Shown in pieces: positions 5,168 through 40,040 of a stretch of 64,000 bases of DNA. Every line of letters begins with the position of its first letter. The first letter of the stretch is position 1. A program made the position numbers and the translations under genes. The DNA comes from Parabacteroides sp. AD58 (GTDB lineage Bacteria; Bacteroidota; Bacteroidia; Bacteroidales; Tannerellaceae), in NCBI RefSeq assembly GCF_023744375.2, contig NZ_CP146284.1, forward strand, positions 2,170,001-2,234,000, in the 5' to 3' direction. The notes beneath the pieces are model-generated. The model was given only the letters and a program-made list of their open reading frames with translations. It ran no database searches and was not told the origin of the DNA.

Positions 5168-5491
5168 TTAATCCAGATGAAAGACTTCTTCCATTTCGGC
5201 CCACCATTCGCCTTCCTTGCGGCTTGCAACCGGTTCCTGACAAGGATTACACAATTTCCACCATTCCTGTGTAGTCGGATCGGCCGCCATCTTCTTCATA
5301 TCCGCTTCGTAATCATCGCCTACATACTCATAATAACTGTAAAGCATTCCATCTTTATAGTAAATGGAATAGTTGCGGATATTACAAGCCTTGATCATTT
5401 CCAACACACCAGGCCAGACATTGGCATGAAGACGTTTGTACTCTTCCAGTTTCTCGGGTCTGACACCAATTATACTTCCTACTCTTTTCAT
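5168..5491 (-). CDS. rhaM: L-rhamnose mutarotase family protein
   Basis: A small cytoplasmic protein of 107 residues from the RhaM/DUF718 family, which interconverts alpha and beta anomers of L-rhamnose (some relatives act on other sugars). Seen: MKRVGSIIGVRPEKLEEYKRLH with the conserved active-site histidine in LHANVWPGV, the tyrosine-rich NYSIYYKDGMLYSYYEYVG segment, and the aromatic tail PTTQEWWKLCNPCQEP. No rhamnose isomerase, kinase or aldolase gene lies nearby, so the physiological substrate is inferred from the family only. It is divergent from the CPBP protease gene and the promoter regions lie within about 50 bp of each other. Confidence 0.85.
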   Translation of the reverse strand: MKRVGSIIGVRPEKLEEYKRLHANVWPGVLEMIKACNIRNYSIYYKDGMLYSYYEYVGDDYEADMKKMAADPTTQEWWKLCNPCQEPVASRKEGEWWAEMEEVFHLD

Positions 5492-5516
5492 GATTCTGCT
5501 GTTTTGAATTTACAGA

Positions 5517-5524
5517 CAAAACTA
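5517..5524 (-). promoter_or_regulatory. -7 element of rhaM
   Basis: TAGTTTTG on the minus strand fits TAnnTTTG and lies 26 bp before the rhaM start. No convincing -33 partner was seen. Confidence 0.4.
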
Positions 5525-5535
5525 CGAAATATTTA

Positions 5536-5567
5536 TTTGTGGCAGTATCAGTTTATCTTTATCTTTG
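5536..5567 (+). promoter_or_regulatory. promoter of the CPBP protease gene
   Basis: TTTG (5536-5539), 20 nt, then TATCTTTG (5560-5567): a full Bacteroidota housekeeping promoter. It overlaps the in-frame TTG at 5565, so that codon cannot be the start; translation must begin at the ATG at 5595. Confidence 0.75.
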
Positions 5568-5594
5568 GGCGGACAAAATCAAACACGACGTTTT

Positions 5595-6485
5595 ATGAAA
5601 GCTCTATTTACAACCCAACGCACAAGCATGCAACTCTTTATATTGATTCTGCTGATCGCCATCGGCAGCCTGTTATCATCCCTATTCGGATTAGGCCTGT
5701 TCCAATTGATATACGGAACGACTACCGGCATGGAGCAGCATCCCGACATGATGCGCCTGTTCCAATTCATCACGGCTGTCGGAACCTTCCTGCTGCCTGC
5801 CCTGATTACAGCCTGGTTGTGCAGTGACCAGCCGAAAAACTATTTAGGAATAAACGGCATACCCGACGGACGGCTGGTCATACTTGTTATTGCCGGCATG
5901 ATCCTTCTCAATCCGATTATCAGTCTGACGTCAATGCTTAATGAAAGCATGCAGCTGCCAGCTTGGGCAGCTCCCGTCGAAAACTGGATGCGGCAACAGG
6001 AAGATCTGGCCCAGCATTTCACCAACCTGTTAATCGATGGAGAAGGGATTTCTCCTCTGTTCACCAATCTGATTGTCATCGCCTTGACGGCAGCAGTCTG
6101 CGAAGAATTCCTCTTCCGCGGCACCTTACAGCAGATTATAGGGCGCTGGACAAGCAATCCGCACGCCATTGTCTGGATTTGCGCCATTCTTTTCAGTGCT
6201 TTCCACCTGCAGTTCTACGGATTCATCCCACGTATGATCTTAGGAGCTTACTTTGGTTATCTGATCATCTGGACCCGGAATATATGGCTGCCGGTTCTGG
6301 CGCATTTCTTCAACAATGCCGTCAGTGTTATCGCCATGTCAGACAGTGAATGGAAAGAGAGTGAATGGGTAAGCGGCAAGATTTCGGATGCTCACTTGTG
6401 GCCCTACATAGGCCTGGCGGTTTTAGCATTGATCGGCTTTGCTTTCATCATCCGGTATATCCGGGAACTCAGCATCCATGCCTGA
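5595..6485 (+). CDS. CPBP family intramembrane glutamic endopeptidase
   Basis: Polytopic membrane protein of the CAAX-protease/bacteriocin-processing (CPBP, Abi) family. From the ATG at 5595 it has 296 residues. All three family motifs are present: E170-E171 in CEEFLFRG, H204 in FSAFHLQFYGFIPR, and LAHFFNNA near the end. Several hydrophobic segments are visible (residues 13-40, 56-76, 93-112, 153-168, 190-205 and a C-terminal one). The family cleaves within membranes; in bacteria members process peptides or give self-immunity, and the target here is unknown. The IS3 element inserted within about 10 bp of the stop codon, so the native 3' region may be displaced. Confidence 0.88.
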   Translation: MKALFTTQRTSMQLFILILLIAIGSLLSSLFGLGLFQLIYGTTTGMEQHPDMMRLFQFITAVGTFLLPALITAWLCSDQPKNYLGINGIPDGRLVILVIAGMILLNPIISLTSMLNESMQLPAWAAPVENWMRQQEDLAQHFTNLLIDGEGISPLFTNLIVIALTAAVCEEFLFRGTLQQIIGRWTSNPHAIVWICAILFSAFHLQFYGFIPRMILGAYFGYLIIWTRNIWLPVLAHFFNNAVSVIAMSDSEWKESEWVSGKISDAHLWPYIGLAVLALIGFAFIIRYIRELSIHA

Positions 6486-37480: not shown

Positions 37481-37564
37481 TAGTTCACGGCGTGAACTAA
37501 GTAATCCACGTCGTGAACTACTTAATCCACGGCGTGAACTAAGTAAACCGCGCCGTGAACTAAA
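37481..37564. repeat. 21-bp-period palindromic array
   Basis: Four palindromic units, TAGTTCACGGCGTGAACTA and variants, start at 37481, 37502, 37523 and 37544, exactly 21 bp apart with 2-bp spacers. It lies between the AAA-ATPase-like gene and the divergent radical SAM operon. The rest of 37565-37689 has no feature I can support. Confidence 0.85.
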
Positions 37565-37704: not shown

Positions 37705-38541
37705 ATGGAACAATGGAAACGAAAACTTTGGAAAACCTGTAATGGCGTCTTAGCCACGCTCCTTGCCTGGCTGGGCTTTTCTTGCCTGGATGAAAACGGA
37801 AATGAACCGATTGTCTGTGAATATGGCGTACCGACCGCAGCTTATTCGCTGAAAGGCCATGTTGTCGATTCGCAAGAGAATGCGGTAGCGGATATGCCGG
37901 TTGTTATTAGCGACGGGACTTTCCCGTACAATTATCTGATTGGCGACACGGTTAAAACGGATGCCAACGGAGAATTTATCTGGGAAAACAAGCGTGTCGA
38001 ACCCAGGGATTTCCAGACTATCCAATGGAAGATTGTAGATACTTGCCGGATCTATCAGGATACGACGGGCGTTACCGTGTTTGATCCGGAGAGTGCCGTA
38101 GGATCCGACGGATGGTTTATGGGAAGACTGTCTGCAGAAGAGACGATTCGCCTGCGCGATTATCAGGAGTCGCATAGCGAGCCGTACCTGCAATACCGGA
38201 TTTACGGACGAATCACCAACTCCATCAACCGGGGTATGCCATTAGTTTTCCTGTCGGCCCAAAAAGCAAACGGACAGGAACCGAAGGAATTCTTCGATAT
38301 CTCTAACTGGAACGGTGAGTATTCGTTTACCTATGAAAAGGCACCGGGCGAAGGCGATTCGCTTGTCGTTTATACCTCTCCGGTGACTTCGGCTGAAACC
38401 GGCTGGAGCAAAAATATTCCGGAAGACTCGGTTGTGATCCGTTTCGACGGTGTTCCTTTAACCGAAGGTTCGGGCTTATTGAAAGGAAAAGGAAGTATAG
38501 AACAAAATATATCGTACAGTTATGAAGCGTATCCTTACTAA
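37705..38541 (+). CDS. radical SAM-associated putative lipoprotein (two-repeat form)
   Basis: 278 residues with a lipobox (WLGFSC). Right after it comes EPIVCEYGVPTAAYSLKGHV, the marker of the rSAM/lipoprotein family (TIGR04134 as I recall). Two carboxypeptidase-regulatory-like beta domains follow (about residues 40-135 and 155-260; the second begins LQYRIYGRITN). The gene overlaps the next by 20 bp. A TAAATTTG element at 37690-37697 would give an almost leaderless message. In this system the lipoprotein is the presumed substrate or partner of the radical SAM enzyme; this is unproven. Confidence 0.85.
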   Translation: MEQWKRKLWKTCNGVLATLLAWLGFSCLDENGNEPIVCEYGVPTAAYSLKGHVVDSQENAVADMPVVISDGTFPYNYLIGDTVKTDANGEFIWENKRVEPRDFQTIQWKIVDTCRIYQDTTGVTVFDPESAVGSDGWFMGRLSAEETIRLRDYQESHSEPYLQYRIYGRITNSINRGMPLVFLSAQKANGQEPKEFFDISNWNGEYSFTYEKAPGEGDSLVVYTSPVTSAETGWSKNIPEDSVVIRFDGVPLTEGSGLLKGKGSIEQNISYSYEAYPY

Positions 38542-38980
38542 ACGGCTCCGTTTTCTCAGCGGAATAGGATGTTTTCTTCTGATGTTACTCGGCTTCGGTT
38601 GCTCAACCGAAGTCGTAGAATATGGCACACCGCATGCGACTTTCCAAATCAAAGGTCGTGTGGAAACAGCCAATCAGGAAGGCATTCCGAATATTCAGCT
38701 GACAAGTATCTTCGGCGAGAATGACACCTGCGCTGTAACCAAGACAGAAACGGATGGTTCTTTCGAGATGAACTTCAGTTATGTTCCACTTACTGATCTG
38801 AAAATTGCCGCAGAAGATGTGGATGGCGATAAAAACGGAAGCTATTTACCCACTGTTCAGGAAATTCATCTCACGGAAAAAGATTTTCGGGGCGGAGATG
38901 GCAATTGGTACGCGGGTGAAGTAGAGAAGAAAATTACAATCAGCCTGAAAGAAAAGGAGAAACATGAAACAGCAGATTGA
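38522..38980 (+). CDS. radical SAM-associated putative lipoprotein (short form)
   Basis: 152 residues with a lipobox (LMLLGFGC) and the same family marker, VVEYGTPHATFQIKG, then one beta domain (ETDGSFEMNFSYVPLTDLKI, AAEDVDGDKNGSYLP). It starts inside the end of the first lipoprotein gene and ends 17 bp inside the radical SAM gene, so the three are translationally linked. The lysine-rich tail (LKEKEKHETAD) is short. Two lipoproteins per radical SAM enzyme suggests related substrates. Confidence 0.87.
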   Translation: MKRILTKRLRFLSGIGCFLLMLLGFGCSTEVVEYGTPHATFQIKGRVETANQEGIPNIQLTSIFGENDTCAVTKTETDGSFEMNFSYVPLTDLKIAAEDVDGDKNGSYLPTVQEIHLTEKDFRGGDGNWYAGEVEKKITISLKEKEKHETAD

Positions 38981-40040
38981 CTTACGCAAACGGCTTGGCC
39001 TGGAAATCTTCCGGAAGATTCATCAGAACCGGGTCAAGCTGCATGAACTGAAGACACTTTTCTGGGAATGCACGCTGCGTTGCAATGTGGCTTGCCGACA
39101 CTGTGGAAGCGATTGCCGCGTTTCCTCGACTTTTACCGACATGCCGGTAGCCGACTTTCTGCGCGTCGTCGATGAAATCACTCCGCATGTGAATCCGCAT
39201 GAAGTATTAGTCATCTTCACCGGAGGAGAAGCCTTGGTGAGAAAAGACATTGAAAGTTGTGGAATCGAACTGTATCGCCGGGGCTTTCCCTGGGGAATCG
39301 TTTCCAACGGACTTTATCTGGACCGGAAACGGCTGGACAGCCTGCTGGCTTCCGGTCTGCATGCCGCGACAATCAGTCTAGATGGATTCGAGAAAGAGCA
39401 CAACTGGCTGCGCCGTCATCCACATAGTTTTGAGAAAGCGGTACAAGCCATCCGGATGCTGGCAGAAGAAAAAGAGATCATCTGGGATGTCGTCACGTGC
39501 GTGAACCGGCAGAATATTTCATACCTGCCGCAGTTTAAAGACTTCCTGGTCAGTCTCGGTGTGAAACGCTGGCGGATATTCACCATCTTTCCAGTCGGAC
39601 GAGCCGCCACGATGCCGGAACTGCAGTTAGACAACCGGCAGTTTGTCTCCGTACTCGACTTCATCCGTCAGTGTCGTCAGGAAGGTGTGATACGAGCCAG
39701 CTACGGCTGTGAAGGTTTCTTAGGGAATTATGAAGGCGAGGTACGCGACGGATTCTATGAATGTCACGCCGGCATCAGTGTAGCTTCGGTATTGATAGAC
39801 GGTTCCATTTCCGGTTGTCCCAGTATCCGTTCGAACTTCCATCAAGGGAACATTTATCAGGATCACTTCATGGACGTCTGGAACAATCGCTTCGAAGCCT
39901 ATCGCGACCGCAGTTGGGCCAAACAGGGAATATGCGCCGACTGCAAGATGTTCCGTTACTGCGAAGGCAATGGCATGCACCTGCACGATGAAGAAAAGAA
40001 ACTGCTGGTCTGCCATTATCACCGGATAACCGATCAGTAG
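38964..40040 (+). CDS. radical SAM/SPASM enzyme of the rSAM/lipoprotein system
   Basis: 358 residues. The N-terminal radical SAM core has CNVACRHC (CxxxCxxC) in WECTLRCNVACRHCGSDC, then FTGGEALVRKD and SLDGFEKEHN. The C-terminal SPASM part has several cysteines for auxiliary Fe-S clusters: YECHAGIS, SGCPSI, CADCKMFRYCEGN and LLVCHYH. SPASM enzymes often modify peptides or proteins. I recall this subfamily as TIGR04133, co-occurring with the TIGR04134 lipoproteins. The enzyme is cytoplasmic, so any lipoprotein modification must precede export, or the link is indirect. Confidence 0.9.
   Translation: MKQQIDLRKRLGLEIFRKIHQNRVKLHELKTLFWECTLRCNVACRHCGSDCRVSSTFTDMPVADFLRVVDEITPHVNPHEVLVIFTGGEALVRKDIESCGIELYRRGFPWGIVSNGLYLDRKRLDSLLASGLHAATISLDGFEKEHNWLRRHPHSFEKAVQAIRMLAEEKEIIWDVVTCVNRQNISYLPQFKDFLVSLGVKRWRIFTIFPVGRAATMPELQLDNRQFVSVLDFIRQCRQEGVIRASYGCEGFLGNYEGEVRDGFYECHAGISVASVLIDGSISGCPSIRSNFHQGNIYQDHFMDVWNNRFEAYRDRSWAKQGICADCKMFRYCEGNGMHLHDEEKKLLVCHYHRITDQ

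Follow-up and report, generated by a model that had tools for sequence, protein, structure and literature searches.

A shared X-Tyr-Gly tag suggests splicease-like modification of lipoproteins by TIGR04133 radical SAM enzymes

What does a radical S-adenosylmethionine (SAM) enzyme do to two lipoproteins whose genes form one operon of overlapping genes with its own? The question is raised by three genes in a 64,000-nucleotide stretch of Parabacteroides sp. AD58 (contig NZ_CP146284.1, positions 2,170,001 to 2,234,000; hereafter the window, in whose numbering coordinates are given), which encode a radical SAM/SPASM enzyme of family TIGR04133 and two lipoproteins of family TIGR04134. Both lipoproteins carry a short tag built around Tyr-Gly, and across related loci a Tyr-Gly tag with a variable residue X before it and usually x-Pro after it is common to neighbouring substrates on different scaffolds. 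Judging from its conservation, Tyr-Gly is very probably the modified site. The TIGR04133 family, in turn, groups with the TIGR04103 and TIGR03913 families. We propose that TIGR04133 is a splicease-like enzyme acting on its own lipoproteins and that the reaction is tyramine excision, a reading to which we assign a probability of about 0.58.

37705..38541, forward strand: longer TIGR04134 lipoprotein, 278 amino acids (aa), predicted substrate (TIGR04134 profile, lipobox LGFSC)
37819..37833, forward strand: EYGVP tag, residues 39-43 of the longer lipoprotein, predicted modification site, with Tyr at 37822-37824 and Gly at 37825-37827 (sequence reading, motif tests)
38522..38980, forward strand: shorter TIGR04134 lipoprotein, 152 aa, predicted substrate (TIGR04134 profile)
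38618..38632, forward strand: EYGTP tag, residues 33-37 of the shorter lipoprotein, predicted modification site (sequence reading, alignment, model)
38964..40040, forward strand: TIGR04133 radical SAM/SPASM enzyme, 358 aa (TIGR04133, Radical_SAM and SPASM profiles)

The original prediction had assigned the three genes to the TIGR04133/TIGR04134 radical SAM-lipoprotein system and suggested a hidden Markov model search as a check. That search bore the assignment out: the enzyme (622.3 bits, cut-off 425) and the longer and shorter lipoproteins (96.2 and 101 bits, cut-off 39.8) all exceed the curated NCBIfam cut-offs, and the pair is thus one that is already named. Pfam profiles recognized Radical_SAM (69 bits, cut-off 29.5) and SPASM (33.8 bits, cut-off 21.5) in the enzyme, and CarboxypepD_reg stayed below its cut-off in both lipoproteins. 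Two beta domains had also been read into the longer lipoprotein; TIGR04134 does match it in two stretches, but its two halves, compared pairwise, were no more alike than shuffled sequences, leaving the second domain weakly supported. In the library searched, the family names led to no paper, and among the titles listed for the chemistry none was on the TIGR04133/TIGR04134 pair; Scott et al. 2022, reportedly on peptides and proteins with beta-amino acids, may cover the system and could already include it. What is new here is the X-Tyr-Gly tag with its link to tyramine-excising spliceases, not the pair itself.

The tag was traced in 103 loci, the window included, chosen for an enzyme match of 230 bits or more to the window enzyme (some near-identical pairs remain uncollapsed); 34 duplicates (L025-L028, L057-L086) and the low scorers L024, L138-L144, L162 and L163 were left out. 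Under a strict rule, which considers same-strand open reading frames (ORFs) of 45-320 aa at most 300 bp upstream, YGP or YG.P (any residue at the dot) occurred in 87 of the 103 loci, compared with 3 of 120 control ORFs drawn from the same loci. Patterns with F, W, H or L in place of Tyr, or with D, A, S, N, E, K or L in place of Gly, were found in 0 to 10 of the 103, mostly equal to controls; the highest, YA (10/103 versus 6/120), lay slightly above them, and a single YD lipoprotein was observed (MYDCP, L009). With upstream ORFs accepted up to 1600 bp away, 90 of the 103 loci carry the tag, and two more carry it downstream. Of the thirteen loci outside the 90, two (L087, L094) encode AQYGAP downstream. 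In L137, VKYGAP and VKYGSP occur in a lipoprotein encoded 2.4 kb upstream; contig ends truncate L052 and L134; L102 holds MYGVR and AAYGT; and the downstream sequences in L103 and L126 are AQYGSW and CYGVD. The other five are weighed below.

A complementary search used a profile of the beta domain, built from the region after the tag without the tag itself. It gave 102 distinct hits in the fetched loci, with YG directly before the domain in 98, of which 88 have P at +1 or +2. All 30 rows of the profile come from tag-bearing proteins, so tag-less relatives may be under-found. The four hits without YG are a fragment cut at its locus end (L053) and L149, L160 and L161, within whose loci the enzyme gene was not found. 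YG preceded 81 of 82 hits adjoining the enzyme versus 17 of 20 others (Fisher p 0.023, uncorrected for relatedness). The sole YG-less hit among the 82 is the L053 fragment, and 3 of the 17 YG hits scored as enzyme-less (L024, L162, L163) adjoin truncated enzyme genes.

We counted 138 distinct upstream sites and kept 133, dropping by eye five in spurious-looking ORFs (one each in L011, L023, L036, L107 and L108). X was E in 38, C in 27, M in 23, K in 18, V in 10, L in 8 and A in 5, with S, I, Q and N once each; Pro stood at +2 in 129, and the residue after YG was Gly in 2 and Pro in 9. EYGxP had been put forward as a candidate recognition or modification site, and as a candidate modification site it is strongly supported, its core being X-Tyr-Gly, usually followed by x-Pro. 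EYG as a fixed motif is rejected because X varies, Glu taking that place in 38/133 sites.

With the five spurious-looking ORFs also removed from the 119 substrates, 114 remain, and 20 of these have two or three sites, the second site in L031 and L032 possibly being incidental. A lipobox was detected in 105 substrates, and in these the first tag Tyr lies 1 to 75 residues past the lipid Cys; it adjoins that cysteine in 25, in which X is therefore the lipid cysteine itself. Many substrates of the L107-L136 group read CYGxP, where the lipidated residue would be the X of XYG. Tag-bearing scaffolds include TIGR04134 beta domains, lipoproteins of about 50-90 residues, lipoproteins with tails that look charged and helix-like by eye (L043, L046, L048, L051), and proteins without a lipobox in which a hydrophobic segment is followed by AQYG (L087, L094, L153, L155-L158). 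As read from these proteins, the tag survives a change of scaffold. A further protein (L019, 5460-5930), encoded directly upstream of a TIGR04133-type enzyme, carries YGP three times and shows no evident signal peptide.

In a tree of 44 enzymes, a branch with support 97/96 unites TIGR04133, TIGR04103, TIGR03913 and an Agathobacter enzyme, leaving MftC, PqqE, NirJ, TIGR04053, TIGR04347, anSME and six others outside; an earlier 40-row tree gave the same branch at 99/96. Since a scan for AhbD (TIGR04545) found none above cut-off in 148 genomes, true AhbD is missing from the trees, and the AhbD/NirJ2-like enzymes L177, L178 and L181 stand in for it (L177 only in the first tree). In 296 genomes scanned across the phylum, no enzyme exceeded the TIGR04103 cut-off. 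For the TIGR04103-like Bacteroidota enzymes, TIGR04103 and TIGR03913 rank first and TIGR04133 third or fourth; TIGR04103 is outscored by heme enzymes such as TIGR04545 in the divergent L127 and L136, and the TIGR04133 score of the Nostoc and Azospirillum enzymes is about equalled by TIGR04545 and TIGR04053. Besides its own family, the window enzyme best matches TIGR04053 (118.8 bits), TIGR04103 (110.5) and TIGR03913 (110.1).

PlpX is a published tyramine-excising splicease acting at X-Y-G, with MYG and LYG as natural sites (PMC10533398; PMC11002830), and the entry given for the PlpX-type enzyme in the review is IPR026482 (PMC11002830). One splicease precursor can undergo several splicings, and the products inhibit proteases (PMC10373908; PMC11117315). 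The tag-bearing proteins described above show X-Tyr-Gly with variable X and fixed YG, as is looked for in a splicease-like substrate. Some enzymes of the TIGR04103/TIGR03913 side of the tree have precursors with related sites nearby. The Nostoc enzyme, a true TIGR04103 (853 bits), has a Nif11 precursor with the core ...IALYGLPPELF; one Azospirillum precursor has PYGPA and a second lacks an N-terminal YG; Aureibacter precursors read PYGAG, beside LYAAG and MYAAS; and the Agathobacter precursor, VMYGTGVRM, is an unannotated ORF. Among Bacteroidota, L167 has PYG and LYG on DUF1843 proteins, L169 has LLYGTPPVP and L171 has six KYGYP. As observations in their own right, L202 (2144-2857) encodes three DUF1843 precursors beside a maturase, two with LYAAG and MYAAS and the third with PYGAG, which may amount to a natural test of whether Gly is required. 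L196 has an enzyme that scores to both TIGR04103 and TIGR04133 and, downstream of it (5409-6056), a 214-aa protein with no Pfam match and six KYGYP repeats at its end.

On the proposed route, the enzyme would excise tyramine (loss of C8H9NO) from XYG ahead of export, using the signal peptide as leader and leaving an alpha-ketoamide; the spliced lipoprotein would then be exported by Sec, lipidated and anchored, and the electrophilic alpha-ketoamide would sit next to the membrane. By analogy with spliceotides, a likely use would be protease trapping, with X setting which protease is caught (Glu in both window lipoproteins), and this is the least certain step. A tethered ketoamide product directed at proteases is rather doubtful. 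The complete proposal, namely signal-peptide-led tyramine excision that puts membrane-tethered alpha-ketoamides on gut Bacteroidales, X choosing the trapped protease or nucleophile, is tentative and less likely than not.

The leader role assigned to the signal peptide has its own evidence. The lipobox regions read ...WLGFS-C-LDENGNEPIVCEYGVPTA in the longer and ...LLGFG-C-STEVVEYGTPHA in the shorter lipoprotein.

37705..37785, forward strand: signal peptide through lipid Cys27 of the longer lipoprotein, candidate leader/recognition element with an LGFS motif (sequence reading, motif count)
38522..38602, forward strand: signal peptide through lipid Cys27 of the shorter lipoprotein, Gly24 invariant in 30 aligned relatives (alignment)

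Of 84 cassette lipoproteins, 54 have the motif G[FLIVM][STAGN] within the signal region, compared with 4 of 33 control lipoproteins, and by eye GF(S/T) is also present in the AQYG members. The TIGR04134 alignment comprises 30 lipoproteins with 24-36% identity to the window protein (one at 92%), and its invariant columns are Gly24, the lipid Cys, three tag positions (Tyr, Gly, Pro) and Gly79; because rows were selected for having the tag, only Gly24, the lipid Cys and Gly79 are informative. A signal peptide that doubles as leader seems reasonably likely from these motifs, with common ancestry as the alternative explanation for the sharing. A precedent is provided by MNIO-modified bufferins, whose modified precursors have Sec signal peptides and for which the authors give preliminary results that the signal peptide belongs to the recognition sequence (PMC12452194). 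In the predicted model of the shorter lipoprotein (mean predicted local distance difference test score, pLDDT, 86.4, with lower values in the linker), the signal helix is joined to the first strand by an unstructured linker, residues 26-37, which contains the tag. A fold search with this model returned generic beta-rich matches only (query template-modelling scores 0.34-0.49 among the 50 matches listed), and no function is drawn from it for that reason.

Could the tag serve a different chemistry? Radical reactions at the tag Tyr or Gly that stop short of excision, such as epimerisation, Tyr side-chain loss or a bond at a backbone alpha-carbon, would also leave YG as the common element, and the best solved-fold matches of the enzyme model (pLDDT 92.1), SkfB, PqqE, DesII, BlsE and SuiB, do other reactions; as model-based evidence, these matches settle the enzyme's fold, not its reaction. 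The auxiliary-cluster cysteines, too, are unlike the TIGR04103-like set. Splicing nonetheless fits better with a variable X before a fixed YG, with repeated sites and with the TIGR04103/TIGR03913 grouping, and we regard non-excising chemistry as unlikely. A crosslink from Tyr to a neighbour, whether as a cyclophane spanning the three residues Y-G-x or as a Glu-Tyr bond of the PqqE type, is improbable. SPASM enzymes do form such Tyr crosslinks, Glu is the commonest X and PqqE is a near match in predicted structure; yet 95 of the 133 sites have another X, including Ala and Val, and a Gly or Pro after YG would make a C-beta link impossible or unlikely.

The cyclophane, considered here as a ring over Y-G-x only, is disfavoured since the third residue lacks a beta-carbon where Gly stands at +1, as in 2 of the 133 sites. 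PqqE substrates have Glu and Tyr both fixed, and a PqqE-like crosslink is disfavoured by the minority share of Glu at X. The mycofactocin substrate of MftC ends in a C-terminal Val-Tyr; the window tags are internal, at residues 39-43 and 33-37. Finally, YG could be a docking or processing signal, with the modification, if any, elsewhere. The finding does rest on sequence conservation only, but the tag shifts widely in its distance from the lipid Cys, is repeated in 20/114 substrates and persists across scaffolds, making such a signal very improbable.

Several observations weigh against tyramine excision by a splicease-like TIGR04133 enzyme. Five loci (L017, L089, L020, L055, L109) have the enzyme and no convincing XYG ORF nearby, four of them also when read over a wider region and L089 even across its 15-kb contig; a different lipoprotein (CSEKYVMDARMS...) lies upstream of the enzyme gene in L017 and L089. 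No convincing XYG precursor was seen near the divergent TIGR04133-side loci L138-L140. TIGR04134-like copies without YG occur in L149 (genome G132) and L161 (G291) though both genomes have the enzyme elsewhere, the G291 match (355 bits) being under the TIGR04133 cut-off, and G230 keeps YG proteins with no TIGR04133 above cut-off. On the splicease side, a convincing XYG precursor was found in only 3 of 11 Bacteroidota TIGR04103-like loci (L167, L169, L171), with none beside L168, L170, L172-L175, L141 and L142. The TIGR04103/TIGR03913 side of the tree is itself supported at only 89/75, several outgroup rows are long branches, and the link to PlpX presupposes its membership of TIGR04103. The window enzyme fails TIGR04103 (cut-off 725 bits) and scores slightly higher to TIGR04053. 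Judged by gene layout, without an RRE (RiPP recognition element) model having been run, the three-gene operon has no RRE-like fourth gene; PlpX acts together with PlpY. Lastly, Cys337 is found in 0 of 103 TIGR04133-side rows versus 11 of 11 compared TIGR04103-like rows.

39081..39104, forward strand: CxxxCxxC radical SAM cluster motif, Cys40, Cys44 and Cys47 (invariant in 25 aligned enzymes)
39762..40013, forward strand: SPASM region, Cys267 to Cys350, with no Cys at position 337, where one is usual; Cys249, farther upstream, is invariant (alignments)

SPASM domains classically have seven cysteines, and the window enzyme, with Gly at position 337, lacks the full set. Across the alignment of 25 enzymes, the invariant cysteines are 40, 44, 47, 51, 179, 249, 267, 285, 324, 327, 333 and 350. 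As TIGR04133-side rows keep Cys249 and Cys51 in place of Cys337, the auxiliary cluster ligands probably differ between TIGR04133 and TIGR04103-like enzymes.

The gene layout agrees with the earlier description of three genes overlapping by 20 and 17 bp, which the ORF coordinates confirm.

38522..38541, forward strand: 20-bp overlap of the longer and shorter lipoprotein genes (ORF coordinates)
38964..38980, forward strand: 17-bp overlap of the shorter lipoprotein and enzyme genes (ORF coordinates)

Flanking genes on both sides of the operon lie on the opposite strand, one encoding an AAA-ATPase_like/PDDEXK_9 protein (Pfam), the other, a 457-aa ORF, presumably an ammonium-transporter-like protein. 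Between the AAA-ATPase_like/PDDEXK_9 gene and the operon, a 21-bp tandem array of 3.7 copies (unit CACGGCGTGAACTAAGTAATC) spans 37486-37563 and contains a TTCACGNCGTGAA palindrome with 3 matches (at most 1 mismatch) versus 0.14 expected; the exact 14-base pattern was found in 0 of 210 fetched loci.

The nearest named relative of the enzyme, 98% identical, is from Parabacteroides faecalis. One public-genome scan, of a kind that reaches close relatives only, gave 24 loci, all in the Bacteroidetes group. Among 295 sampled genomes from the order of this relative, TIGR04133 was above cut-off in 61 and TIGR04134 in 40, of which 38 also have TIGR04133 above cut-off (exceptions G230 and G291). Plasmid records add Parabacteroides distasonis and Phocaeicola massiliensis (60% identical, no annotation). 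Outside Bacteroidota, plasmid pTS1 of Treponema saccharophilum (L200) carries TIGR04133 with an annotated lipoprotein (CYGMP), near an Mpi-type serine recombinase gene; at E 1e-25, possibly too strict a threshold for it, the lipoprotein matched no NCBIfam family.

For a pair that owes its name to co-occurrence, the proposal supplies one mass to look for: C8H9NO lost at a specified Tyr. It would, if true, extend backbone splicing to the anchored envelope proteins of gut bacteria, with signal peptides serving as leaders and no separate RRE. Native lipoproteins might also gain a chemical handle: the aminopyruvate unit described for X = Gly reacts with tetrazines (PMC10533398).

Compared with known systems, the PlpX-type spliceases have the X-Tyr-Gly site in common with TIGR04133, along with a tolerant X position, more than one site per precursor, the radical SAM/SPASM architecture and the side of the tree. 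In contrast to their Nif11 leaders, substrates here are mostly lipoproteins with signal peptides, and TIGR04133 has no adjacent RRE partner gene, one SPASM Cys fewer and a score under the TIGR04103 cut-off. The TIGR03913 GDL-motif/DUF1843 maturases are tree neighbours whose DUF1843 precursors have PYG or LYG near the N-terminus, but these precursors are short and without a lipoprotein signal, 2 of 3 in Aureibacter reading YA and 1 of 2 in Azospirillum lacking an N-terminal YG. The bufferin enzyme belongs to a different family (non-haem iron) and acts mostly on Cys. With the NCBIfam TIGR04133/TIGR04134 pair the window shares both families above cut-off in one operon; the names give no reaction, whereas the present proposal adds one, together with substrates beyond TIGR04134.

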